The notes beneath the pieces are model-generated. The model did no database searches and was not told where the DNA came from. It saw nothing but the letters and a program-made list of their open reading frames with translations. A stretch of DNA of 64,000 bases from Diplolepis rosae (taxonomy: Eukaryota > Arthropoda > Insecta > Hymenoptera > Diplolepididae). Position numbers and translations under genes: made by a program. Below, piece by piece: positions 7,606-63,806 of this stretch; within the stretch, counting starts at the first letter, position 1; every line of letters begins with the position of its first letter. The stretch spans positions 2,666,001 through 2,730,000 of the forward strand of contig JAPYXD010000715.1 of NCBI GenBank assembly GCA_030998225.1, read 5' to 3'.

Positions 7606-8158
7606 AGTACACTCGAGATTCCCTGTAACGTAAAGCTCGAGCATCGGAAACCTCTCTGTAACAAACGCGAGAGATATCCTCTCCATATCCTACTTGTTTC
7701 TAAGCGTTGTTATGCGCATTATATAATGCGCGCAGTCGGTCTGTCAGTGAGGCTATGTGAATAATATATTTACATAGTTAAAACGGTATAAAAAAGATTT
7801 CTGTGAGTGTTAAAGATGGAATTAACTTATTTGACGGTATGTACTCAAAATACTAAAAATATAATAATATAATAATAAAAATATTTATGCTTATATCAGG
7901 TGTATTTTTGTAATATTTTCAGAAAAAAATAAATTACACTATCAAGTAATTTTTCAATAATTTAAAAATAATTTTCTCATTAATTTGTAATAAAAGCAAT
8001 CAAACTCATTGATTACTTTTTCAAATTCGAGCGCGCTTCATTCCGTAGTAGTGGGGGAAGAGAGGTCGATCGTCTGCTCGTTATAGGGAGGCGTCACGCG
8101 CTTGTTACAGAGAGGTTTCGTTACAGGGAATTTCGTTATAGGGAATCTCGAGTGTACT
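7606..8158. mobile_element. Non-autonomous inverted-repeat element (MITE), 553 bp
   Basis: The left end agtacactcgagattccctg (7606) is the inverse of the right end gggaatctcgagtgtact (to 8158). The next block, cctctctgtaacaaacgcg, pairs with cgcgcttgttacagagagg. The interior is AT-rich and non-coding. It sits directly between the 123-bp tandem repeat and the piggyBac fragment, at the junction of the two. No certain target duplication is visible. Confidence 0.75.
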
Positions 8159-9169
8159 CAAAAGCTGGAGATCACGACGCCAATGATAATGCATGGCGCG
8201 TTCGTGCATTACTGAAACTATTCCAGAGAAACATCCTGAAGTTTGGCGTATGGAGGATTGCTCTCTCCATAGATGAAATGATGGCCAAATCGTATGCAAG
8301 AACATCATTGAAACAATTCATTCGAGGAAAACCCATACTATTTGGCCTGAAATTCTGGGTTCGTTTCACTTCATATGGCTTCGTATTGTGTTTTGACTTA
8401 TATTGCGGGAAAAATTCAAAAATTGGAGTGAAATTCAGTAAATGCGCATTAGATTCTCGCGTAGTGATGGATTTGTTAGAACCATTTTTTAACAAGGCAG
8501 CTGCGGGAAAGATATCTCAATTTCATCTTTACAATTATTTCATAAACTTGGATCTCATGATGGTGCATTTGAGGAAGCTCGGATTGAAATGTGCAGTTAC
8601 AATCAGAGACAATAGGGTGAAAGAAAAGAGGCGAGTATGCCGTGAAGCATGAGAAAAATAGCGGCATGAACTACATAACTGTAGTAGATTCGAAGCCAGT
8701 TTCGATAGTTTCCACTGCTTCAGGAGTAACTCCTTTATTACCCTTGAAAAGGTACAGTTCACAAGCACGATCCAAAGTTGAGATACCTTTCCTTAAAGCT
8801 GTCCATCTCTACAACAAGTTTATGGGAGGAGACTATCTTCATCATGGACACTGCATTAATGTGCTTCCAAGAATTCGTTCGAAAACATGGACTTGGGTCG
8901 TTTTTATGAGACTGATCCAGGCCTCCATTGTGAATGCTCTCGAGATATACAACGTTTCCGGAGATGTCAAGAATAAAGTCGGAACAAAAGAATTTGCAAT
9001 ATCTATTGCTAAGAGCTATATGAGAAAAGGTCAGGTGAAACGGGAAACACACAGAATAGCTCATCAAAATAAACTGAAAGTCTGTTCGCATTGTCCTATA
9101 AGGACCAGGATTTTCTGTAAAGAGTGTAAATCACCATTCTGTGATCCGTGTTTCAAGGAGAATCACTAA
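8159..9169 (+). pseudogene. piggyBac-family transposase, 5' truncated and frameshifted
   Basis: The first frame (8159-8652) begins inside the catalytic domain with LSIDEMMAKSYARTSLKQF and FIRGKPILFGLKFW, the region of the first catalytic Asp. A +1 frameshift near 8640 leads to the second frame, which continues with LYNKFMGGDYLHH and ends in the cysteine-rich C-terminal domain (CSHCPIRTRIFCKECKSPFC) typical of insect piggyBac transposases. The N-terminal half is missing: the coding part starts where the upstream MITE ends. Apart from the one frameshift the sequence is surprisingly well kept, so loss is fairly recent or the copy came late. No TTAA-flanked ends are seen. Confidence 0.85.
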
Positions 9170-11624: not shown

Positions 11625-13960
11625 GTCTCGATGCCCTCAACGACTTGCAATCATTTATGCAATTCTAACATTTGTTGTTGGAATTGTTAATACTCTTCGT
11701 TGGGGGGCAATTTCTTCTGTGTTTGCTTGGTTGCCTACCGAAACAGGTTGTAGTTCTACTTCTTCTTGGTTTTTTTCAATGTTTAAATTTTTATTGTTAC
11801 AGGTTTTACAGTTTTTGCGAATAATTCCTTGTGTGAAGTAGATAGCAATTGTTATTATTAATAAGGTTAGGGTACTGGACCCTCCTAACCAATATTTTGG
11901 GCTAATTTATGTTTATAATGATTACTTTCCAGGTCGAGAAGCTGTTCTTCTATAGTAGAGATTATCTGCCATATGCAGATTTTTCAATTTTCCATCTTTT
12001 TCAGATTCCCATAAAAATGTTTTTATTTTAGGAATATGCATAGTTTTATAAATTATGGGGATAATTTCTGATATATCATAATAATAATATATAATAATAA
12101 TAATAATATAATATAATAATAATAATATTTAATGAAAATCCTGGGTTGTAGATGAATTCTTCTGAGTTTACATTTATTTAAGTTCCAATCAACGTTGTGT
12201 GTTCCGTTCTTGCAATACACCGTGCACTTAATCTTAATATTCCTGAATTTGAAATATGTCCCTTTTCTGTTTTTCCGTTTTTACAGGTAATCCTGATTGG
12301 CTCTGGGGTTCTAGTTGAAAATATCCATGCTTTTAATGATGTAATATGCTTCCACAAAACTGAATTTTTTGTATTTATTTTAACATCACATTGTTGTAAA
12401 GTTTTCATTGAAGGGAGTGTAAGCATTAGACATTCACAGGACGTAGCACAGTGTGTAGAATGAGAAAATTGGGTTTCAAAATGATTCAGCACCTACAATT
12501 TTCCTACGATTTAACTTTTTTGTTTTTAAATTAAAGCTAAATAAATTTTGAAGAAGTCTGTAGAGGCCGATTTTGCAGAAAAGACGCGGTTATTTTGTTA
12601 TTTAGGTTGCAAATTGCAAAAAAATCATAATTTTCCATATTTGTACTACCTGCTCCATGATATTCATAGATATTACCTCAAGAATGTATCAAATTGATAG
12701 ATTCACAATCACAGAGAAAATTCCGATATTTTAGGTGAAGTTCGTGCAATCTGTTCAATTGTCATGAACAAATTAATGGAAAAAATCTTTTTTTCTATAT
12801 ATTCGAGCCTGAAAGTTCTTTTCATCACGTTTTTTCCACGGAGTCGATTGTAATCAATGTTCTATTACAATCCATACCTGGAATATAATTTTTCATATTG
12901 TTATAAACAAATTTCATGAACAAATTCAATGAACAGGCGCCGCTGGATATATAAAATTCCTTTTTTTCTGCCTGATCATCAATTTCCTCTGCGAAAATGA
13001 TGCTTCAATTAATGGAAAGCACAATCAAGGGTATTTACATTTTTTATTAACAATACTGATTAACAAATGTATTAAACGGCCACTCTTTGGTAGAAAAAAT
13101 TCATTTTTCTTCATGAAATCGTCTATTATATACAAAAAATAGAAGTATAATGAATGGACTGACATTAAACAATATCTTCCATTGTTATTAACAATTCTAG
13201 TCAACAAATGCACCCAATAGCTGTTTCTAGATTGCAAAAATGCATTCTCTGCTCGAATGTTCATTTGAGATACACTTTGGTTACCCTTGAGTGTTTCGAT
13301 TATCAGTTGTTTTAATTTTCAGTTGTGCCGTTTTTTACTTGTTCCGGATCTCACATGTTTTTACTCTCCGATATTTATACTCCGAAATGATGCGCTTTCA
13401 TTTCTTTCAGGACCAGAGAAAAATGAGTATACTCATTCAATTGATTCGCATGGACGTTTTTCGTCTTTCTTCAATCGTTCATAGCGATGGAGAAGAATGT
13501 TGAGTACGAATGTTTCACCATCAGACGTTGGAGTTTCATTTCTGAGGATCAAATGAATATCCGATAAATTGTTCTCTGGCAAGTGTCATAGTAATCTTTA
13601 TCTGTCAAAAATAATTTTCTTTCGTCTTCCGTCAGGGCAATATATTGTTTTCTTGGTAAAATGTAGACGGCTCTTGTATAATTTTCCGAAATGTTCTGGT
13701 ACACAGGAAATGGATAAATTTTATATAATTGTAGTGCTTTTCTATCTAGCAATGGAATGTCTACTGATATTAGTAGTTTTTCAGCCGCAGTTCTGATGTC
13801 TGTTTTGACTGCTTGGGAAAGTAATTCTGCCCTAATGTGTGAAGTGGGAATCGAAAATTCGAAAATTTATCAACGTTTTATCAGGGTTGTTATCTTCTGT
13901 TATCTTACTGTGTTGGCAAGAAAAGAAAGAAAAAGGCAACCTCCATATCCTCTCCCTTGA
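11625..13960 (-). pseudogene. Errantivirus-like envelope (env) relic
   Basis: Minus-strand pieces fall in the order of an insect errantivirus Env. The N-terminal ectodomain part is at 13549-13870 (RKALQLYKIYPFPVYQN). The middle part is at 12178-12492, with scattered cysteines such as HCATSCECLML and RITCKNGK. The C-terminal membrane anchor and cytoplasmic tail lie at about 11640-11930, where a hydrophobic run rich in Leu and Ile is followed by polar residues. Several stops and frameshifts separate them. About 1 kb between 12500 and 13540 has no Env similarity and may be an insertion or strongly decayed sequence. Only env and its polypurine tract remain; pol of this copy is not seen. Confidence 0.6.
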
Positions 13961-14142: not shown

Positions 14143-15321
14143 TTATATTGTTGATTGGACAATTTTCCAGCAGCACCTGCTGTGGTCTGGCCCTCGGCAG
14201 TCCGCCGCTATGTGGCCAAAGCCAAGGCAGCGGAAGCAACGGTTCACCTCTTTTTTCCTCCGAACTCTGCAGGAGACCCACCCGATCTTAATGTGGGCCC
14301 CTTTGAGCAGCTTCAGCGCCCTTGCCTCCTCCAGAAGCACATACGCCTTCCGATTTCCTCTATAGCGTGTCTTGCTTAGAGACACCCTTAACTCCAGCTC
14401 CGGTTCTTTGTCGAAAAAGCTTCTGACCGCATCCTCGACGTCTTCCGCTTCAGTAGTTGGATCCAGGTCGGCGATATTGACCTCGATCCGGGGGATAAGA
14501 TGACGGAATGTCCCCCTGGCTCCAAATGCCTCTTTAAAGGCAGTGTCTAGTCTCCCTCTGCTTTTTGTGGAACATTTCAGTTCCACTAGCAAGTCCTTGG
14601 AGCGCGTCTCCCTGATTCCCTGGACAGTGGCGCCCAGTTCGTCAGGATTGACGCACTTCTTGATCTCGCGCAGGATTGAGGCGTAGCTCATCCCCTCCGG
14701 CGGTTTGATAAGCACCACTTCTGGGCACGCACGGCGAGGTTTCTCCGGCGTTTTGGAAAGCTTCTTCCCTTTCCTTTTCTGAAGGTCCTTCTTTTTGGGA
14801 ACCTCGACCCACTCCCCTTCTTTATTGGAGGCTTTAGTCCTCTTCTCCGCTGGTATTTTCGCTGCGGACACCTCCGGACTCGCAGTCGGCTCTCTAACCC
14901 GCTTTCGCGTGTCCGGCGTGGACCTCGCAGCCGGCTGTGGGAGGGTTTGGCTACCCTCGTCCGCAATTTCCTTGCCTTTGGGTGGTCTTACCTCCTTTAT
15001 CTTCTTTACCATCAGATTCCTCATCAGGCACTCGAAGGAGTCGAGGTTGCAGACAGTATCCTCAATGTCGTACCGCAGCACCCCGAGCTCCTTCCGCGCC
15101 TCCTGAATGCCCTCCCTGATAGGGAAGTGCATATTCTTCTTGGTCCTAGAGAAGCTATCCATCTTCTCCAGGGCCGTCTCCACCTTCTGTAAGATCTCCA
15201 GCTGCCTCTCATTCCTTTCGTGAAGCCAGTCCCGATACTGCCGTAGATGTGACTTATCGCTCTCTAAAGGATCCGGTGTCTTCTCCGTCACATCCAAATA
15301 ACTCCTCACACATCGTTTCAT
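14143..15321 (-). CDS. R1-clade LINE ORF1 (Gag-like, zinc-knuckle protein), 3' truncated
   Basis: A 392-codon minus-strand frame starts at ATG 15321. An N-terminal helical region (residues 1-105) is followed by a Lys/Arg/Pro-rich stretch (110-205), then a conserved domain (about 215-350) with VVLIKPPEGMSYASILREIK and the arrangement typical of ORF1 proteins of R1/TRAS-type LINEs. The end holds one CCHC knuckle, CFRCLGFGHIAADC, and the start of a second (CCWK) before the sequence leaves the element at about 14160. Such proteins normally have two or three knuckles and overlap ORF2, which encodes the endonuclease and reverse transcriptase. Here ORF2 is gone. The frame has no stop, so the fragment is fairly young. 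GC content is far above that of neighbours. Confidence 0.8.
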   Translation of the reverse strand: MKRCVRSYLDVTEKTPDPLESDKSHLRQYRDWLHERNERQLEILQKVETALEKMDSFSRTKKNMHFPIREGIQEARKELGVLRYDIEDTVCNLDSFECLMRNLMVKKIKEVRPPKGKEIADEGSQTLPQPAARSTPDTRKRVREPTASPEVSAAKIPAEKRTKASNKEGEWVEVPKKKDLQKRKGKKLSKTPEKPRRACPEVVLIKPPEGMSYASILREIKKCVNPDELGATVQGIRETRSKDLLVELKCSTKSRGRLDTAFKEAFGARGTFRHLIPRIEVNIADLDPTTEAEDVEDAVRSFFDKEPELELRVSLSKTRYRGNRKAYVLLEEARALKLLKGAHIKIGWVSCRVRRKKEVNRCFRCLGFGHIAADCRGPDHSRCCWKIVQSTI

Positions 15322-15807: not shown

Positions 15808-16374
15808 CTAACTTAGTATCTTTTCCCCTTTCAGACGATCCCAGTAGTCTTCCTTCGTTGTTTCCTGATCGTTGAGAAGTCGCTTGTTTCTCTTTATTTG
15901 TTTTTTGCAAGTTGCCATTGTGTGGCCCCTTAGATAGCAATACTCACAACAGTTGTCCCATTTATATAATTTGATTAACGAAATCGCGGGGTTGTCTAGG
16001 CAAATAACATAACTTTCGTCTCTACTATTACAGATATTTTTCTCTTCACTAAAATAATACATTTTTTTAAGGATAGCTAACATTTTCTTCGTGGCTTCGT
16101 GTTCCACGCTACTTATCCTATTCTCCCCATTACTTAGAGTACTAAATTTATTTCCGCGTTTCTGATCCTCCACCACTCATCTAATGAAAAATTTCTTTTT
16201 GTTGTAAGCTTCCGTAGTTTCTTCTAACGTATATTTCGGTTTTGTGAAAATGTATTCCGCCGTCAGCTCCTCCAGCTGCCTCTTGGTGGATTGCAATTTT
16301 TCTATCTCCCTTTTGTGTTGTAGGGTGATAGGGTATATCTCTCCCTTGAGTGGTAGATTGTTAATAACGGACAT
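15808..16374 (-). pseudogene. dsRNA-binding domain plus CCHC zinc-knuckle accessory ORF of a Ty3/Gypsy element, one in-frame stop
   Basis: Reading from ATG 16374, the frame is continuous to 15808 except for a single TAG at 16177-16179. Residues around 30-110 resemble a double-stranded-RNA-binding domain: a first helix (LEELTAEY), strands with KPKYTLEETTEAYNKKKF, and a last helix VEHEATKKMLAILKK. After about 50 residues there is a CCHC knuckle, CEYCYLRGHTMATC, then a basic tail. The ORF lies directly after the integrase end, in the position of env. It has the same domain order, and a similar W-x-N/S-x-C lead-in to the knuckle, as the ORF at 62341-62790. The KKxAK RNA-contact motif is not kept here. 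I infer RNA binding; a role against silencing is speculation. Confidence 0.6.
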
Positions 16375-16429: not shown

Positions 16430-17529
16430 TAACTTAAGTGTTTCAAAATGTTTTTGGAATAATTTTCCGTCGGGTTTTTCTAATCTGGCGTTGTTTGTGT
16501 CTATGATTTTTACAAGGGTGTAGGGTCCGTGGTATTATCCAATTTTCCGCTTATTTTGGTTTTCTTTTTGACGTATACCTGATCGCCTAAATTCCCTAAA
16601 AATGGCTTTACCATTTAATCATAGTTTTTTTTCGAATGTTCTTTGTCGGTGATCAAATTTCTAGCTGCTATTAATTTTATTTCCGATAATCTTAATATTA
16701 ATTCCTGCAGATAGGTCCCGTAGGTTTCTAATTTTTCGGAATCTGGAAATGAAATGCGTGCGATTTTACCGAATACTATTTCAAAGGGTGTAAATTGAGT
16801 GGCTTCGTGTACTGATGTATTGTATGCGAACATTGCGAAGAGTAGAAATTGGTCCCAGTCATCGTAAGTTTCTGCGTATGCTCTTATGTAGTTCATTAAT
16901 ACTGCGTGGCTCCTTTCCAGGGATCCGTTTGATTGTGGTCTATATCCTGAAGTGGTAATCTGTATTACTCCAAAAATTTTTGATAATTTACTGAGTAAAT
17001 TATTGATAAAACTTCCTCCCCTGTCTGTAAGTATATCCCTAGGGTCTCCATATTGTGAGAATAAGTGCTTTGCTATCGCATGAGCGACAGTGGTTGCTGA
17101 AATATCAGGTATAGGGACGGCAATACAGCACTTAGATAAATTGTCCTACATAGTGAGAATGTGTTTATTACCATCAGGGGTGGTAGGCAATTTTCCTACT
17201 GTGTCTAGAGATACTTTGTCGAAGATGTCGAGAGGTGTATCGGTGATTAACATAGGTTCGTGAATTTTAGTCCTTACAATTTTCTGTTTTTGGCAAGTGT
17301 CACATTTTCTGAGAAATTCAGTGACTTGATCCTTAAGTCCTGGCCACATGTATCTTTCTCTAATTCTTCGATATGTTTTATTTATTCCTTTGTGGTCCCC
17401 AATTTTACTTTCGTGGTTTCCGGAAATAATTTGAGTGCGTATCTCCTCTGGGGGTATATTTATGTTGCCGTAACATATTGTTATTTCTATCTTGGAATTA
17501 ACAAATTCTTGAGTTAGTAATTCACGCAA
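16430..17529 (-). pseudogene. Ty3/Gypsy integrase, nearly complete
   Basis: The N-terminal zinc-binding HHCC domain is at 17529-17290 (DHKGINKTYRRIRERYMW, then CDTCQKQK). The core domain shows the catalytic residues in the expected order: Asp in VSLDTVGKLP, Asp in ILTDRGGSF, and Glu in NGSLERSH (about 17230, 17040 and 16910). A TAG at 17146-17148 interrupts the core, and another stop at about 16614 precedes the basic C-terminal part (GDQVYVKKKTK). Apart from these two stops the frame is intact. The dsRBD accessory ORF follows at once, and reverse transcriptase is absent upstream. Confidence 0.8.
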
Positions 17530-34497: not shown

Positions 34498-35511
34498 TTA
34501 GTCACTTGTTTTCGTTGGGCAGGGTATTAATTTCGTACTGTGGAATAAATTTGACTTTTTCTTGCTATGTCCTGTGTGTATTTCATAAATTGACTTGGAT
34601 ATTTTTTTCGCAATTTCATATGGTCCAATTCTGAGTTCATCGAGCTTTTTCCTGTTTAACTTGTTTCCATTCTCCACGAATACTTTATCTCCCGCCTTGA
34701 ATTCCAAGTGTTTTCTGTTTTTGTCGAAGATTTTTTTGTTATAGTTGTTAGATTTTAGCGTGTTTAGAAGTGCAGTTTTCCTATCTTCTTGTAAGTCCTT
34801 CGGCGTTTTACATTGTTTTAATTCTTCTGGTAAAATTGTTGTATTCTCACCTTCTAACAAATATTTGGGTGCAAAACCTGTGATTGTGTGTACCGTTTCG
34901 TTGTATCTTTTTATATATTCTTGGGCGATCGTTGTCCATGCCATTTTTTTCTTCTCTTCATTAATTTTGCACCTAACTTTATTTACCAAAGTTTGGTTTA
35001 ACCTTTCGTTTAGACCATTTGAGAAAGGTGAATCTACTGCTGTAAACACTAATGGTGTTTCTTTTTCTTTTACATAGTTTTTAAATTCTTCCGAGTTGAT
35101 GCCTGGGTATTGATCAGTGAGTACCATTCCTATTTTATCTTTATCAGTAGTTTTTTTTGCTAATTTTATGAAGTCTCCTGCATTTTGAGTTTTCGACGTC
35201 GTGATCCAAGCATATCTAGTGAAATGGTCAACCAATAGATGAAGGTACTTTTTTGTTGATCTCGTTCCGCCGAATCTTCCGATTGTGTCAATGGAAACGA
35301 TCTCAAGTGAGTTTTCTGCTGGGCCCAGGTGGGACATCAGACCATATTTATTTTGGCCCCTGGATTTATTTTTAATGCATGTAGAGCAATTCTTGCATAT
35401 TTCTTTTATGTTTTGCATTAAATTTTTGCTTGTGTAAAAAGGACTAATTATACTATTCATCTGTTTTATGCCAATGTGGCAATAGTGTTCATGGATTTTT
35501 TTAATAAACAT
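34498..35511 (-). CDS. Ty3/Gypsy integrase, open frame
   Basis: A 337-codon minus-strand frame without stops. It starts in the zinc-binding domain (HEHYCHIG, then CKNCSTC). The catalytic core has Asp in VSIDTIGRFGG, Asp in MVLTDQYPG and Glu in SNGLNERLNQ, the D,D-35-E triad. A C-terminal GPY/F-like module follows (ELRIGPYEIAKKI). The frame ends at TAA/TAG just before the polypurine tract, so this element has no env and pol is its last gene. The upstream RNase H end continues at 35512. All catalytic residues are present, so the domain looks well preserved, although the whole element is not complete. Confidence 0.85.
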   Translation of the reverse strand: MFIKKIHEHYCHIGIKQMNSIISPFYTSKNLMQNIKEICKNCSTCIKNKSRGQNKYGLMSHLGPAENSLEIVSIDTIGRFGGTRSTKKYLHLLVDHFTRYAWITTSKTQNAGDFIKLAKKTTDKDKIGMVLTDQYPGINSEEFKNYVKEKETPLVFTAVDSPFSNGLNERLNQTLVNKVRCKINEEKKKMAWTTIAQEYIKRYNETVHTITGFAPKYLLEGENTTILPEELKQCKTPKDLQEDRKTALLNTLKSNNYNKKIFDKNRKHLEFKAGDKVFVENGNKLNRKKLDELRIGPYEIAKKISKSIYEIHTGHSKKKSNLFHSTKLIPCPTKTSD

Positions 35512-54239: not shown

Positions 54240-55866
54240 AAACATTATTACGCTAGGCCCTTTCAGACACCCAGAGCGCATTTGGCCAAATTTAAGAATA
54301 TATAGCAGCGCTATAATCCGTTGAGACCCTGTTAGACGCCCATAGCAGAAATTCAAGAGATCCCTGGTAGAACCACAGTAGATCCGTTAAGTCACCCAGA
54401 GCACATTTGACCAAATTTGTAAATCTCCATCCCCACTATAACTCGTTAAAATCCTGTTAAGCACCCATACCTTCGAGTCAAGAGATCCCTGCTAGAACCA
54501 CGAAAGCTACATTTAGACACCCAGAGCGCAAATGGCCAAATATTTCAAACTATGTTAACGCTATGACCCGTTGAGACCCTGTTAGACGCATATACATACA
54601 ATTCAAGAGAGCCCTGGTAGAAATACGGTTGATCCGTTTAGACACCTGGAGCGCAATTAAACATAACTTTGATTCAAGAGTTCCCTGAGAGAAAAACGGA
54701 AGATCAATTTAAAAACCCAGCGCGCACGTGGCCGAGTTTGAGAATCTATGTTTCTCTATGACCCGGCCAGACCCAGTTAGACGCCCATACCTGCGATTCA
54801 AGATATCCCTGAGAGAAAAACGGTAGAACTGTTAAAACACGCAGAGCGCACTTGGCCAAATTTGTCAATCTATGTCTTGCTATGTCATGTTCAGACCCAG
54901 TTAGACACCTATACCAATGATGCGAGAGATCTCTTATAGAACCACAGTAGCCATCTTCAGCAACACAGAGCGCACTTCCGAAATTTGTCAATCTATGACT
55001 CATTATGACCCATTCAGACCCAGTTAGACGCCCATACATGCGATGCAAGAGATCTCTGATAGAACCACAGTAGTCATGTTTAGACTTCCAGAGCGACCTT
55101 GGTGAATTTAACAATCTATGTCCCCGCTATAAGCTGGATAGAGCGTGTTAGACGCCCATACCTGCTATTCAAGATATCACTGGTAGAGCCACGGTAGATC
55201 CGTTTAGACACCGAGAGCGCCGTTGGACAAATTTGAGAATATATTTCCCCGCTATAACCTGGTAAGATCCCGATAGATGCCCATACCTGCGATTCAAGAT
55301 ATTCCTGACAGAATGACGGTAGAACCGTTCAGATTCCCAGATGGCACTAGGCCAAATTTTCCACTTTTTTTCTCGCTAAAACCAGTTCAGCCTCTGTTAG
55401 ACGCCCATACCTGCGATTTAAGATATCCCTGATAGAACCACGGTAAACCTGTTTAGAGACCCGGAGTGCAATTGGCCAAATTTATCAATCTATGTCGCGC
55501 TATAACCCGTTCAGACCCTGCAAGACGCCCATACCAGTGATGCAAGAGAGCTCTAATAGAACTACAGTAGCCAAGTTTAGACACACAGAGCGCACTTCCG
55601 AAATTTGTCAATCTATGACTCATTATAACCCATTCAGACTCTGTTAGACGCCCATACCTGCGATTCAAGCTATCCCTGAGAAAACCATGGAAGACCAATT
55701 TAGACACTTAGAGCGCACTTGGCCAAACTTGCCACCCCATGTCTCGCTGTGATCGGTTCAGACCCTCTTAGTTTCCCATGCCTTCGATTCAAGAGTTCCC
55801 TGAGAGAACAGCGGTAGACCCGTTTAGACACACGGAGCGCACTTGGCCAAATTTTTCAATCCATGA
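54240..55866 (+). repeat. 124-bp satellite array, block 1, forward
   Basis: Units contain gttagacgcccatacctgcg, attcaagagatccctgatag, aaccacggtagacccgttta, gacacccagagcgcacttgg and ccaaatttgtcaatctatg. Anchors (gacgcccata or variant) fall at 54780, 54904, 55027, 55151, 55276, 55400, 55524 and 55647, giving a period of 123-125. Units differ by many substitutions. Open frames here are by-products of the repeat. Confidence 0.9.
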
Positions 55867-58800
55867 GTGAAAAGCTTAACAAATTTGGCCAACTGCACTC
55901 TTGGAGACTTGACGGCACTACCATGGTTCTATCAGAAATATCTTGAATCGCAGGTAAAGGCGTCAAACAGAGGCTAATGTTGGTCATAGCAAGACATGGA
56001 TTGAAAAATGTGGCCAAGTATGCTTTGGTTGTCTAAACGAGTCTTCCATTCGTCTAACATGGATCTATTGAATTGCAGATATGGGCGCCTAGCAGGGTCT
56101 GAACAATCCTTAGAGAGACATAGATTGAACAATTTGGCACAGTGCGCTCGGTGTGCCTAAATAGGTCTATTGTGGTTCCCTCAGGGACATCTTACATCGC
56201 AGCTATGGGCGTCCAACAGAGGCTGAACTGGTCATAGAAAAGACATTGATTGACAAATTTGGTCATTTGCGCTCCATGTGTCTAAATGGGTCTAACGTAG
56301 TTCTATGACGGATCTATTGAATGGTAGGTATGAGCGTCTTGCAGGGTCTGAACAGGCCGTAGAGTGACATAAATCAACAAATTTGCTGAATAGGATCTGA
56401 GATTCTCAACGGCGCTACCGTGGTTCCATAAGGAATAACTATAATCGCAGGTATGGGCGTCTATCGGGATCTGACCAGAATAAAGCGGGGCTATAAATTG
56501 ACAAATATATCTAAGTGCGCTTGGTATGTCTAAACAGGTCTACCGTGATTTTATGAGGAATATTTTAAAACAGAGGGATAGGCGTCCTGCAGTGTCTGAA
56601 CGGGCCGTAGAGTGACATGGATGAAAAAATTTTGACAAATGCGCTCTGGGATTCTTAATGGGTTTACCGTGGTTCAATCAGGAATATCTTAAATTGCAGG
56701 TATGCGTGACTTGCTGGGTCTGAACGGGCCGTAGAGTGACATAAAATAACAAATTTGTACAAATGCGCTGTGGGAGTCGTAACGGGTCTACCGTGGTTCT
56801 ATCAGGAATATCTTAAATCGCTGGTAAGGACGTCTAACAGAGTTTGAACTGGTCATAGTGAGACATGGATTGAAAAATTTATCCAAGTGCGCTCTGTGTG
56901 TCTAAACTGGTCTGCCGTGGTTCTATCAGGAATATCATGAATCGCAGGTATAGGCGTTTTGCAGGGTCTAAACGGGCGGTAGAGTAGAGAGCTTAACAAA
57001 TTTGGCCAACTGTACTCTGGGAACCTTAACGGCTTCACCGAGGTTCCCTGAAGAATATCTTGAATCGCTGGTATGGGCGTCTTGCAGGGTCTAAAAAAAG
57101 CATAGCGAGACATGGATTGAAAAATTTATCCCAGTGCGCTCTGTGTGTCGAAACAGATCTATCGTGGTTTTATCAGGAATATCTAAAATCGCAGGTATAG
57201 GCGTCTATCGGGATCTGACCAGAATATTGCAGGGCAATAGATTAACAAATATATCTAAGAGCGCTCTGTATATCTAAACGATTCTACAGTTTTTCTATCA
57301 CGGATCTCTTGAATGGTAGGTATGGGCCTCTTGCAGGTTCTGCACGGGCCGTAGAGTGACATAAATTAACAAATTTGTACAAATGCGCTCTGTGTGTCTA
57401 AACTGGTCTGCCGTGGTTCTATCAGGAATATCTTAAATCGCAGGTATAGGCGTTTTGCAGGGTCTAAACGGGCGGTAGAGTGACATTAATTAAAAAATTT
57501 ATCCAAATGAGCTCTGGGAGTCTTAACGGGTCTACCGTGGCTCTATCAGGAATGTCTCACATCGCAGGTATGGGTGACTTGTAGGGTCTGAACGGGCCGT
57601 AGCGTGACATAGTTTAACAAATTTAGACAAATGCGCTGTGGGAGTCGGAACGGGTCAACCGTGGTTCTATCAGGAATATCTTAAATCGCTGTTAAGGGCG
57701 TCTAACAGAGTTTGAACTGGTCATAGTGAGACATGGATTGAAAAATTTATACAAATGCGCTCTGTGTGTCTAAACTGGTCTGCCGTGGTTCTATCAGGAA
57801 TATCTTAAATCGCAGGTATAGGCGTTTTGCAGGGTCTAAACGGGCGGTAGAGTAGAGAGCTTAACAAATTTGGCCAACTGTACTCTGGGAACCTTAACGG
57901 CTTCACCGAGGTTCCCTGAAGAATATCTTGAATCGCTGGAATGGGCGTCTTGCAGGGTCTGAAAAAAGCATAGCGTGACATGGATTGAAAAATTTATCCC
58001 AGTGCGCTCTGTGTGTCTAAACTGGTCTATCGTGGTTTTAACAGGAATATCTAAAATCGCAGGTATAGGCGTCTATCGGGATCTGACCAGAATATTGCAG
58101 GGCAATAGATTGACAAATATATCTAAGAGCGCTCTGTATATCTAAACGGTTCTACCGTTTTTCTATCATGGATCTCTTGAATGGTACGTATGGTCCTCTT
58201 GCATGTTCTGAACGGGCCGTAGAGTGACATAAATTAACAAATTTGTACAAATGCGCTGTGGGAGTCGTAACGGGTCTACCGTGGTTCTAGCAGGAATATC
58301 TTGAATCGCAGGTATGGGCGACTTGCATGGTCTGAACTGGCCGTAGAGTCAAAAAAATTAACAAATTTGGCGAAGTGCGTTCTGTGTGTCTAAACGGGTC
58401 TACCGTGGTTCTCTCAGGGACATCTTGTATCGCACGTATGGACGTCTAACAAGGTCTGAATAGGTCATAACGAAACATGGATTACAAACTTTGGCCAAGT
58501 ACGCCCTGTGTCTCTAATCGAGTCTACCGTTTTTTTATCATGGATCTCTTGAATGGTAGGTATGAGCGTTTTGCTGGGTCTGAATGGGCCGTAAAGCGAC
58601 ATAGTTTAACAAATTTGGCCAAGTGCGCTCTTTGTGTCTAAACGGGTCTACCGTGTTTCCATCAGGGAACTCTTGTATCGCAAGTATAGGCGTCTAACAG
58701 GGTCTCAACGGTTTATAGTGTGGAAATTGATTGGCCAATTTTGCGGAGTGCGCTCAGTGTGTCTAAATCGTTGTACCATTCTTCTCTCAGAGAAACCTTC

Positions 58801-58926
58801 GATTGAAGGCTTTAGCGTCTTGCAGGGTTTGAACGGGTCATAGAGGGTCATGGAATGTAAAATTTGGCGAAGTGCGCTCTGTGTTTCTGAACGGTTCTAC
58901 CGTGGTTCTCTCAGGGAACTCTTGAA
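55867..58926 (-). repeat. 124-bp satellite array, block 2, inverted, with 868-bp higher-order repeats
   Basis: At 55866 the orientation flips: units now read cgcaggtatgggcgtctaac and so on. Within this block the phrases gaccagaatattgcaggg (57217 and 58085) and cgtctaacagagtttgaact (56831 and 57699) recur at exactly 868 bases, seven units of 124. So a seven-unit block has been duplicated as a whole. Confidence 0.9.
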
Positions 58927-60690
58927 TATAACCTGGTTAGATCCTGATAGACGACCATACCTGCGATTTCAGATATTTCTGATAGAACCACGGTAGACCC
59001 GTTTAGACTCCCAGAGAGCAGTTTCCCAAATTTGATGATATATGTCACTTTAAGGTCCGTTCAGACCCTGCAAGATGCCCATACCTGCAATTCAAGATAT
59101 CTATGATAGGAAAACGGTAGACCCGTTTAGACAACCAAAGCGTACTTGGCCAATTTTCTCAGTCCACGCCTCGCTATGACCAGTTCAAACTCTGTTAGAC
59201 GCCCGTACCAGCCTTTCAAGATGTTTTCAGAGAACCACGGTAGAGCCGTTTAGACATACAGAGCGTTCTTAGATATATTTGTCAATCTATTGCTCCGCAA
59301 TATTCTGGCCAGATTCCGAAAGACGCCCATACCTGCGATTAGAGACATTCCTGATAGAGCCACGGTAGGCCCGTTAAGACTCCCAGAGCGCATTTGGCCA
59401 AATTCATCAATCTGTTTCTCAGCTATAACCAGGTTAGGTCTTGATAGACGCCTCTGCTTTCGAGTCCAGTGTTCTCTGAGAGAGAAAAGGTAGACCCGCT
59501 TCGACACACAAAGCCCACTTGGATAAATTTTTAAACCGCGTCTCGTTACGACCCATTCAGACTCTGTTGTACTCCCCCGCCTTCGATTCAAGAGATCCCT
59601 GAGAGAACCACGATAGACGCGTTAAGAGTCCCAGAGCGGGGTTTTACAAATTTGGTAATCTCCTTCACTCTATGGCCCGTTCAGACCCTACAAGACGCCC
59701 ATACCTGCAACTCAAGAGATCCGCGATAAAAAATGGTAGACCACTTTAGACCCCCTGAGCGCATTTGGCCAAATTTATCAATCTATTTCTCAGCTATAAC
59801 CTGGTTAGATCCTGATAGACGACCATCCCCGCGATTCGAGATATTGCTGATGGAACCACGGTAGACCCGTTTAGACTACCAAAGCGCAGTTGGCCAAATT
59901 TGTTAATCTATATCGCTCTACGGCCCGTTCAGACCCTGACGCCCATACCTGCAATTCAAAACATCCATGATAGAAAAATGATAGATCCGTTTAGACTACG
60001 AGAGCGCAGTTGGCCAAATTTGTTAATCTATATCGCTCTACGGCCCGTTCAGACCCTGACGCCCATACCTGCAATTCAAAACATCCATGATAAAATATGG
60101 TAGACCACTTTAGACCCCCAGAGCGCATTTGGCCAAATTTATCAATCTATTTCTCAGCTATAACCTGGTTAGATCCTGATAGACGACCATCCCCGCGATT
60201 CGAGATATTGCTGATGGAACCACGGTAGACCCGTTTAGACTACTAGAGCGCAGTTGGCCAAATTTGTTAATCTATATCGCTCTGCGGACCGTTCAGACCC
60301 TGACGCCCATACCTGCAATTCAAAACATCCATGATAGAAAAATGATAGATCCCTTTAGACAACCAGAGCGCACTTGACCAAATTTTTCAAACCATGTCTC
60401 GCTATGTTCAGTTCAGCCTCTGTTAGACAATTCAAGACTTTAATTCAAGTGTTTCCTGATAGGAATACGGTAAACCCGCTTAGACTCCCAGAGCGCACTA
60501 GGCAAAATTGATCAATCTATGTCCCCGCTATAACCTGGTTAAATCCTGTTAGACGCCCATACCTGTGATTTAAGATATCCCTGAGAGAACCACGGTAGAC
60601 CCGCTTAGACTCCCAGAGCGCACTAGGCCAAATTTTCCATTTTATGTCTCGCTATAGCCAGTTCAGCCTCTGATAGACGCCCAATACAAT
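58927..60690 (+). repeat. 124-bp satellite array, block 3, forward again
   Basis: At 58926-58927 the unit orientation returns to that of block 1 in the middle of a unit. Recent local duplications are visible: gcccatacctgcaattcaaa at 59941, 60061 and 60305, and ctggttagatcctgatagac at 59801 and 60165 (364 bases, about three units). The array ends near 60690, where unique AT-rich DNA starts. Confidence 0.9.
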
Positions 60691-61166: not shown

Positions 61167-61920
61167 TGTTACGTCACAAGTACGTAAATACTTACCTTGA
61201 TCGAAGATTCCTCGTTTTAAGTTAGGATCGAATGATCCTCGCTTAGGGATGAGGATAAGTCAATGAAAAGACACAATGATTATCAAATAATAAAAATTGA
61301 ATTTATTAAAATAATTATAAATTGAAAATATTAAATTGCCGATACAATTGATTTATAATTGGAGGCACAGGCTGGTTGGTTGGAAAGAGACAGAACATAT
61401 ATATAGAGAGAGAGAAGAGTTCGGTACCTTTATGATTTCCCTTTGTTTCCTTAAATATTCCTCACAGGTATGACTGCGATGCGATTCCCACAGGTGTGAC
61501 TGCGAAGGAGTGAATATCCACAGGTGTGATAAGGACACAACAACTATTCACTCTTTTTGGCACTGAGTCTAAGATCCTTTCAAGGATTGAAAAACGGACC
61601 ACGGTAAATTTATGACTCTCGGGTCTTTACACTGTCAAACTGCACGGTATAATTGTCTCACGCTGAGAATCCCTTTTAGTTTTTTAGAAAATCCCGCACT
61701 TAAATACTGCTCACAAGACTAGTTTTCCCTTGGCGGTGTGTCCTTTTTATATTATATTTTTTGGTGACGTCACGCGTTGCGCAGTCTCCCGCTGCGTGTG
61801 ACGTAGTTATACCTCTCTTTTCAATAGGTGGTTTTCTCTCTCTTTTAGTAATTTCCCCAGATTTCTCTCTAGACCTAGCCTGTGCCTATAGTACATTCGA
61901 ATGCGTCGCGGGACGTGACA
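61167..61920 (-). repeat. 3' LTR of an LTR retrotransposon with accessory ORFs
   Basis: On the minus strand the LTR starts TGTCACGTCCCGCG (61920) and ends GTACTTGTGACGTAACA (61167), TG...CA, 754 bp. A polypurine tract, TAGGGGGGGAGG, precedes it at 61932-61921, so this is the 3' LTR. Inside are a TATA box (TATAAAAAG, about 61751-61743) and, downstream of it, AATAAA near 61300. The body of the element extends to the right and leaves the window. Confidence 0.75.
61743..61751 (-). promoter_or_regulatory. TATA box of the LTR promoter
   Basis: TATAAAAAG on the minus strand lies about 170 bases into the LTR, with a GC-richer stretch upstream. This is where the U3 promoter element belongs. Confidence 0.55.
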
Positions 61921-61932
61921 CCTCCCCCCCTA
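61921..61932 (-). other. Polypurine tract
   Basis: Minus-strand TAGGGGGGGAGG directly abuts the LTR start TGTCAC, the plus-strand priming site of LTR retrotransposons. It fixes the LTR edge and the orientation. Confidence 0.75.
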
Positions 61933-62340: not shown

Positions 62341-62790
62341 TTAAGAATTATTTTTATATTTTCTATTACGTAAAGGATTGCGGCAGTTATGAGCTAAATG
62401 CCCTCTTTGAAAACACCTTTCACAAGAGTTGGTCCATTTTTGCAAGGTTTCTTTACTGATTTCATCAGTTATTTTGAAAATTCTCGTTTCTGGGATTAAG
62501 CTTTTTTCTTTCATTTCTTCTAAAAATACATATCTTGTGGAAAGCATTTCCAAGAGTTTAGATGCTGCATTTTGCTTTGCAGACTTTTTTTGAGGGGCCG
62601 GTTCCCCAATACAAGAGAAAGTTATTTTATTTTTAAAGATTTCGCAAGTTGCTTGGAACGGTGGCAGTTCTTGGTGTTTTCCAAGCGATTTTACAATATA
62701 TGAAGGTTCGGAGAAATCATACTCAATGCTTATCTCGTTTAAAACTTGTACAGCAGTGACTTTCGATAGGTCTCTTGTCTGCAAGGCCAT
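62341..62790 (-). CDS. dsRNA-binding domain plus CCHC zinc-knuckle accessory protein of an LTR retrotransposon
   Basis: An intact 149-codon minus-strand frame begins with ATG at 62790. Residues 11-82 fit a double-stranded-RNA-binding domain: first helix AVQVLNEI, SEPSYIVKSLGKHQELPPF, a strand with FQATCEIF, and second helix QKKSAKQNAASKLLEML, which contains the KKxAK motif that contacts RNA in this family. Residues 123-136 are a CCHC knuckle, CERCFQRGHLAHNC, followed by a basic tail. The polypurine tract and 3' LTR lie about 400 bases downstream, so the gene is in the env position. It shares its domain order with the ORF at 15808-16374 of a different Gypsy element. RNA binding is well supported; interference with silencing or help in packaging are inferences. 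Confidence 0.7.
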   Translation of the reverse strand: MALQTRDLSKVTAVQVLNEISIEYDFSEPSYIVKSLGKHQELPPFQATCEIFKNKITFSCIGEPAPQKKSAKQNAASKLLEMLSTRYVFLEEMKEKSLIPETRIFKITDEISKETLQKWTNSCERCFQRGHLAHNCRNPLRNRKYKNNS

Positions 62791-63041
62791 TGTTTTTGAT
62801 CTGCAAAAGAATTACCTGTTTGAGTTGATGATTGAATTTGTTGAAATTCTAAAGTTAGTTAGTTTTTTTTTGTAATAATTTTGTGTTTGTTGATATATTC
62901 ACTTTCCGCGTTTCCTAACTCAAAGAGATATTTCATGCAGAGAAAACAGTGGTCCGTTTTTAAGAATATTTTAATTTATTAAGGTTTGTCGTTACATTAT
63001 AGCGGTTAAGGAAGAAGTAGTGGTGTATATGAAATATGATT
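62791..63041 (-). other. Intergenic part of the retrotransposon
   Basis: AT-rich, no frame of note. A leader or splice-acceptor region for the dsRBD ORF could lie here; on the minus strand a C/T-rich run with AG occurs shortly before ATG 62790 (tttgcag near 62800), a plausible acceptor. Confidence 0.35.
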
Positions 63042-63260
63042 TTAAACAACGAATAAAAAATTAAAAGGGAAAAAGCTGAGTTCTGTCATCCAACAATCCT
63101 CGCAAACAAGTTTTTTTTCGAGAACATTCATGTAAAAATTCTCGACCAGGGTTGTGCAGCAGTATTCTGACCATAATTGATTTTCAAAATACGGCTGAAC
63201 ATCCTGCTCGCTTGCTCGAACTTCTTCTGCTTCGATTGTTTCGATTTCTTGGGGCAGCAT
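63042..63260 (-). CDS. Small Cys-containing accessory ORF of the retrotransposon
   Basis: A 72-codon minus-strand frame starts with ATG at 63260 (MLPQEIETIEAEEVRASEQD), acidic at first, with a cysteine pair (EYCC) and a later CEDCW. It ends in a hydrophobic stretch (FFPFNFLFVV). I recognise no family. It lies between the Cys-rich ORF and the dsRBD ORF in the same orientation and may be a fragment or exon of a larger accessory gene. Confidence 0.4.
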   Translation of the reverse strand: MLPQEIETIEAEEVRASEQDVQPYFENQLWSEYCCTTLVENFYMNVLEKKLVCEDCWMTELSFFPFNFLFVV

Positions 63261-63458: not shown

Positions 63459-63806
63459 TTAAATATCGTTCGATACATTCTCTACAATCAGCTGCTTTTT
63501 TCGCGGAGTAATTAATAGTTCTTGACAACCGTAACAATTCATATATATGCATTCCAATTTACAAATGGAATGCCATGAAGTAAAAAATTCACAGTTATTT
63601 TGAGTTTCCTGATCTAATTTCTCGAAACAGAATTGGCAATATCTTTTTGTGGTTTGGTGATTATAATATAAAAACAATGTTGAGGGTTCTAATTCGAAGC
63701 AATAACTCTGTAATAAGTGCGCGTATGCTATCGGATAGTCTTGCGGACATACACCGTCTACTGGTCCAAGATGGTTAACAATAGGTTCACTTGGAGTTGG
63801 TATCAT
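63459..63806 (-). CDS. Cys-rich accessory ORF of the retrotransposon
   Basis: A 115-codon minus-strand frame starts with ATG at 63806. The second half is rich in Cys and His: RYCQFCFEKLDQ, then NNCEFFTSWHSICKLEC and MNCYGCQELL. Two CxxC pairs plus further Cys/His suggest two zinc-binding sites (C-x2-C...H...C and C-x2-C). I know no named domain that matches. Orientation and spacing link it to the next two ORFs and the 3' LTR, making a run of three small genes where a Gypsy element would have env. Confidence 0.45.
   Translation of the reverse strand: MIPTPSEPIVNHLGPVDGVCPQDYPIAYAHLLQSYCFELEPSTLFLYYNHQTTKRYCQFCFEKLDQETQNNCEFFTSWHSICKLECIYMNCYGCQELLITPRKKQLIVENVSNDI

Follow-up and report, generated by a model that had tools for sequence, protein, structure and literature searches.

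The window, a 64,000-nucleotide stretch of the Diplolepis rosae genome (C387:2666001-2730000), carries near one edge, on the minus strand at 62341..62790, an open reading frame (ORF) of 149 amino acids that is the last gene before the 3' LTR of a retrotransposon and that was characterised by Pfam, an AlphaFold2 model and its matches elsewhere in the genome. Residues 14–83 (62542..62751, minus strand) constitute a double-stranded RNA-binding domain (dsRBD) that matches PF00035 (dsrm) with 29.9 bits against the curated cut-off of 23 (E 8.5e-7), and a dsrm match at E ≤ 0.01 is found in 22 of the 25 members of the ORF's family. The KKxAK contact motif stands at the start of the second helix (QKKSAKQNAA), and 40 residues beyond the dsRBD lies a CX2CX4HX4C zinc knuckle (residues 123–136; 62383..62424, minus strand), which is read from the sequence and scores under the Pfam cut-offs (zf-CCHC_3 23.8 against 27; zf-CCHC 11.1 against 20.8). 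The original prediction had proposed just this pairing of a dsRBD with a CCHC of retroviral type; the dsRBD is borne out by its Pfam score, its predicted fold and the KKxAK motif, and the CCHC spacing is present as described, with a sub-threshold profile score.

The predicted fold deserves some care, since its quality depends on the alignment from which it was built. AlphaFold2 run on 35 sequences gives a standard α-β-β-β-α dsRBD with block means of pLDDT between 78 and 91 over residues 11–90, whereas the 25 near relatives by themselves gave a pLDDT of 40 and no dsRBD model; the good model needed the 35 more diverse rows and thus leans on the divergent second family described below. Its best fold matches in the PDB are dsRBDs, those of Loquacious, plant DRBs, Dicers, TRBP and RNase III among them, with R2D2 also among the close Dicer-partner folds, so that the comparison of model and PDB proposed with the original prediction returned a dsRBD. 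A profile of alignment A2 searched against PDB sequences gave no match at E ≤ 0.01. When viral models were searched by fold, a bee virus polyprotein ranked first, and nudivirus and iridovirus DRBM proteins matched in lower rows.

The element that houses the ORF measures 17.26 kb (C387:2727167-2744421). LTR comparison places its 3' LTR, 754 bp long with TG...CA ends, at 61167..61920 on the minus strand, next to the polypurine tract GGGGGGGAGG (61921..61930, minus strand); from the stop of the ORF to tract and LTR we measure 420 bp, close to the 400 bases or so estimated beforehand. The 5' LTR lies outside the window on the same contig (C387:2743668-2744421), about 16 kb from its partner, and a 4-bp target site duplication, CAAG, flanks the whole. 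Only 3 differences separate the two 754-bp LTRs, which, if neutral sites change at roughly 3e-9 per site per year, corresponds to an insertion age below about one million years; the element is thus young and recently inserted. Fourteen nucleotides beyond the 5' LTR is a primer-site-like sequence, TGGTGCATCGGCCGGGAA, which we take to be complementary to the end of a tRNA-Gly. A 600-aa ORF with a CxxC stretch at its end occupies the gag position and has no gag match in Pfam; it is followed by pol, with reverse transcriptase (RT), RNase H and the integrase zinc domain in that order. In the window copy a single TAG parts the gag-position ORF from pol in the same frame (L034:4178-4180), either as a read-through site or as a damaged gag end. 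The solved polymerase nearest to the RT is that of Ty3 (7q5b, E 5.1e-105; 4ol8, E 1.6e-97), and the TG..CA LTRs, short target site duplication, polypurine tract, RT-RNase H-integrase order and Ty3-like RT together make the element a member of the Metaviridae (Ty3/gypsy). Its labelling as insect-type, that is, of the insect endogenous retrovirus (ERV) type, is suggested by the F-type Env gene described below. The Troyka lineage was considered and ruled out, Troyka elements having, in the available portion of PMC12440569, no envelope, CG..CG termini and another zinc-finger spacing. Among the other copies, L033 (C229) seems truncated, the expected pol not having been found there.

The region between integrase and 3' LTR is unusually rich in genes, and the 149-aa ORF is the last of seven found there. 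The order, pieced together from two copies with frames measured from stop to stop, is integrase, a Monjiviricetes-type glycoprotein, a 262-aa frame, a 240-aa frame, an F-type Env, two Cys-rich ORFs (A and B) and the 149-aa ORF; 2.9 kb of the window copy, between L031 and L034, lie outside the stretches examined. The glycoprotein, of Monjiviricetes_fusion (chuvirus) type, is an 816-aa frame (PF24664, E 9.6e-248), of which residues 636–816 are covered, at 99% identity, by the stretch of the window copy examined; its true start is uncertain because in seven of eight copies the first 50 or so residues stand in a different frame from the remainder. The 262-aa frame (245 aa from the first Met; L031:3495-2707) contains two dsrm stretches (1.9e-10) and has no relative among viral contigs, and the 240-aa frame (194 aa from the first Met; L031:2807-2085) combines a CX2CX4HX4C knuckle with a dsRBD whose score (9.7e-4, 20.1 bits) lies under the dsrm cut-off of 23. 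The Env is a 618-aa frame of baculovirus-F type (593 aa from the first Met; PF12259, E 1.2e-22). Both Cys-rich ORFs are damaged in the window copy: ORF A (135 aa in L002; 63403..63806, minus strand) has its frame broken near 63500, and ORF B (143 aa in L002; 63042..63260, minus strand) is shortened, some 320 bp being missing near 63070 that are present in most other copies examined. A single element thus holds two env-type genes of different origin, one Monjiviricetes/chuvirus-type and the other baculovirus-F-type. Since both lie between integrase and the 149-aa ORF, the description of that ORF as standing in the env position has to be given up; by its predicted domains it is instead one of a small family of dsRBD genes inside the element.

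This arrangement is repeated across the genome. At least 150 matches to the 149-aa ORF were scored from 2286 candidates, and at least 146 to the 262-aa frame from 1336. Among the 149-aa ORF matches listed, 88 of 150 have a 262-aa match 2.5–9 kb upstream on the same strand, and the control pairings gave none downstream and one on the opposite strand. The 240-aa frame and the F Env were matched in all 12 stretches examined between the two, and the glycoprotein in all 8 examined upstream of the 262-aa frame, the copies having been chosen for a listed 262-aa frame and, for the 12, a 149-aa ORF as well; many of these stretches, several F matches included, contain stops or frame breaks. The 149-aa ORF and the genes upstream of it are one element.

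The small ORFs also bear the mark of purifying selection. The sample comprised 70 loci taken from 150 rows (the 30 best matches and 40 stop-free picks), of which 56 hold the full ORF free of stops, all copies used being stop-free by choice. Over these 56 copies dN/dS is 0.24, and over the 37 distinct sequences pN/pS is 0.30 (bootstrap 0.19–0.46), against 1.52 and 0.98 in the wrong frames, so that the comparison across copies suggested at the outset finds the ORF constrained. Constraint is spread over the dsRBD (0.27), linker (0.37) and CCHC (0.32). Cys-rich ORFs A and B give 0.335 (wrong frames 1.36 and 0.81) and 0.177 (1.06 and 1.95) respectively; the glycoprotein gives 0.42 on 8 pieces, the 240-aa frame 0.45 on 9 and F 0.63 on 14, values that come from few stop-free pieces compared with one reference and are weaker than those for the three small ORFs. 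That the ORF might be a captured host exon or a chance reading frame, functionless in the element, is suggested only by its isolated look at the edge of the window; at least 150 matches, the 88 of 150 paired with an upstream same-strand 262-aa frame, purifying selection and the second-family homologs speak against it, and we regard it as barely credible. The single-copy host exon named as a refutation of the original prediction is contradicted by the multiple copies and repeated gene order.

The second family is represented within the window itself. An integrase piece with an H2C2 zinc domain (17146..17529, minus strand; Integrase_H2C2, 1e-19) marks a second gypsy element, and downstream of it lies another, older dsRBD+CCHC ORF (15808..16374, minus strand) with an in-frame stop at 16179-16177, the two pieces of which have no dsrm match of their own. 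Baculovirus-F-type env remnants follow (12181..13866, minus strand) as two pieces, 13866-13552 (2.7e-5, just under the cut-off) and 12492-12181 (2.1e-9). Between ORF and remnants stands an ORF without a Pfam match (14143-15321) that, judged by eye, is taken as a LINE ORF1. The second-family ORF has 24 relatives in the protein database, and all seven full-length ones scanned match dsrm; in the genome at least 150 matches were scored from 1463 candidates, and these include a further group at about 48% identity. Copy L095 shows integrase, dsRBD-CCHC and F Env directly in this order, each in its own frame, so that the search for the same kind of ORF 3' of integrase in related elements succeeded. 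Because this second gypsy family also shows integrase, dsRBD-CCHC and F Env, the dsRBD-CCHC gene is a lineage-wide accessory gene and not a single capture; the three-gene order is probably the older plan, of which the 17-kb element would be an elaborated form. One match of the further group lies inside a 1798-aa open frame (G000:C154:3972186-3972731), where the dsRBD-CCHC is perhaps fused to pol.

The window holds other repeats besides these. At 34498-35511 lies one more gypsy integrase, which has an H2C2 domain and a tail resembling SH3/p58_C; the dsRBD queries matched nothing in its vicinity. Tandem arrays, long and degenerate and repeating every 124 bp or so, occupy 54265-60683, and two adjoining ORFs at 8152-9169 match DDE_Tnp_1_7 (1.9e-15 and 9e-6), presumably a piggyBac-type transposase in two frames. 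In the whole genome (757.7 Mb) the exact repeat (TTAGG)6 does not occur.

What the dsRBD binds can be approached through the KKxAK motif. In alignment A3 it is kept in seven of the eight rows of the 149-aa ORF's family, the remaining row reading QKQ, which makes dsRNA binding likely for that family. The full motif is absent from 12 second-family rows and from the 240-aa frame, so that dsRNA binding cannot be assumed for all, and the shared function may be the binding of structured RNA or of protein. A protein-binding role would fit a mimic of Dicer partners, whose dsRBD, acting mainly between proteins as does dsRBD3 of Loquacious or TRBP, would divert Dicer or its partners. The PDB matches do include the protein-binding dsRBDs 4wyq (the Dicer-TRBP interface) and 4x8w (Loquacious dsRBD3), which tie within 1–2 Z with RNA-binding dsRBDs, and the second family without the full motif is consistent with such a role; the 149-aa ORF nevertheless retains KKxAK, and a common fold shows no function, for which reasons we think a mimic of this kind improbable.

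Candidate splice sites suggest how the late genes could be expressed. Ten nucleotides before the ATG of the 149-aa ORF is an acceptor-like site, TTCTTTTGCAG (62801..62811, minus strand), and all 69 copies of this ORF looked at have a YAG in the 22 nt upstream of their ATG, as do 53 of 54 copies of Cys-rich ORF A and 53 of 55 of ORF B. Scored with a simple matrix, these sites rank 5, 4 and 3 respectively among the 91 AGs in L002; in L031, the acceptor-like site before the F Env Met ranks first of 164, and the YAGs that precede the first Met of the 262-aa frame and that of the 240-aa frame rank only 42 and 52. A donor-like GTAAGT lies near the LTR end (61190..61195, minus strand), and 32 of the 33 LTR ends examined have the same hexamer some 28 nt before the end, the exception being the window copy, whose 5' LTR reads GTCAGT. 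This pattern suggests multiple splicing from one leader donor to several predicted acceptors, including those before four late ORFs. If so, control of unspliced RNA would be required, as by a Rev- or nucleocapsid-like protein that, bound to a structured part of the unspliced genomic RNA, would help it to be exported, packaged or reverse-transcribed. Such a role for the 149-aa protein would also suit the joining of a dsRBD to a CCHC of retroviral spacing and the persistence of dsRBD-CCHC in lineages without the full KKxAK; against it, a nucleocapsid may already exist in the separate 600-aa gag-position ORF with its CxxC end. We consider this reading possible but somewhat doubtful.

We rank first, while holding it tentatively as something less than probable, a main role of the 149-aa protein in counter-defence against RNA interference (RNAi). 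The dsRBD proteins of some insect viruses keep dsRNA from Dicer-2, and the ORF, an accessory gene in a Ty3/gypsy element that is large, young and equipped with envelope genes, could serve similarly. A spliced subgenomic mRNA, in which the LTR-leader donor is joined to the acceptor just before the ATG, would probably yield the 149-aa protein; its dsRBD would bind double-stranded or strongly structured RNA, with the CCHC knuckle probably adding a nucleocapsid-like contact. By coating dsRNA of the element, for example that from sense and antisense read-through of its many copies, the protein could plausibly keep it from Dicer-2, which we infer to be its most likely job. The dsRBD as seen by profile and model, the KKxAK kept in this ORF's family, the Dicer-partner-like and viral DRBM folds, the constraint, the YAG and GTAAGT sites, the multiplication of the gene inside the element and its presence in a separate gypsy family all speak for counter-defence; against it, the full KKxAK is missing from the second-family rows and the 240-aa frame, the knuckle has a sub-threshold profile score, and a CCHC knuckle is not a usual feature of known RNAi suppressors. 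The original prediction had extended such shielding to the piRNA pathway, the main defence against elements of this kind, but piRNA silencing does not run through dsRNA, and this branch is therefore unlikely.

Several parts of this element have precedents in the available portions of the papers cited here. As in ZAM and gypsy, an F-type Env lies 3' of integrase in a Ty3/gypsy LTR element; in those errantiviruses (iERVs) Env is made from a spliced subgenomic RNA and env-F is the third ORF, whereas the element described here, at 17.3 kb, has two env-type genes along with three dsRBD ORFs and a pair of Cys-rich ORFs (PMC12992720). Anakin likewise carries a Monjiviricetes/chuvirus-type glycoprotein within an LTR element, but is BEL/Pao rather than gypsy (PMC7642597). 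Jingchuvirales glycoproteins have been described near Gypsy fragments, with no clear Gypsy capture reported in the portion consulted (PMC10084718), and PMC13172572 mentions, for mosquitoes, gypsy ENV with type III fusion glycoproteins, so that the presence of a type III Env in gypsy is not in itself novel. LTR elements of bdelloid rotifers resemble ours in having extra ORFs after pol, there spliced and common to several lineages, but their ORF3 types are GDSL esterases, DEDDy exonucleases, TM/CC proteins and a paramyxovirus-type env, and the main text of that source contains none of the terms "double-stranded", "dsRNA" or "zinc" (PMC5408684). Small constrained accessory ORFs are known in insect LTR elements as sORF1 and sORF2 of the MDG1 group, which lie upstream of gag and are predicted to be helix-turn-helix or fusogen-like, in contrast to the dsRBD 3' of integrase here (PMC11952523), and extra ORFs are also described from sunflower (PMC11728184). 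Small viral dsRBDs of similar predicted fold occur in proteins of Tipula oleracea nudivirus and Iridovirus Liz-CrIV, although not in retroelements. An F Env in insect ERVs, a chuvirus glycoprotein in BEL/Pao and an odd ORF3 in rotifer elements are thus already known; within the part of the literature covered by our search, no dsRBD gene was found in any LTR element. In PMC12210899, which also mentions gypsy, the one passage with "dsRNA-binding domain" concerns Dicer in rust fungi.

Taken as a whole, the 17-kb element may represent a lentivirus-like complexity in an animal Ty3/gypsy lineage, combining two envs that come from different viruses, a single LTR donor spliced alternatively to several acceptors, and a gene family that duplicated within the element and serves RNA counter-defence or export, with four dsRBDs in three proteins (two of which have zinc knuckles) as well as two Cys-rich proteins; we put this forward as a possibility that falls a little short of an even chance. 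Retrotransposons are usually regarded as passive targets of small-RNA silencing, and a conserved dsRBD family shared by several gypsy families, each of high copy number and with envelope genes, would be a candidate element-encoded counter-defence or, alternatively, a candidate Rev-like RNA regulator outside the vertebrate retroviruses; a single small protein suffices to test both candidate roles. That one provirus joins two envelope types bears, in turn, on how insect ERVs gain and swap their entry genes.
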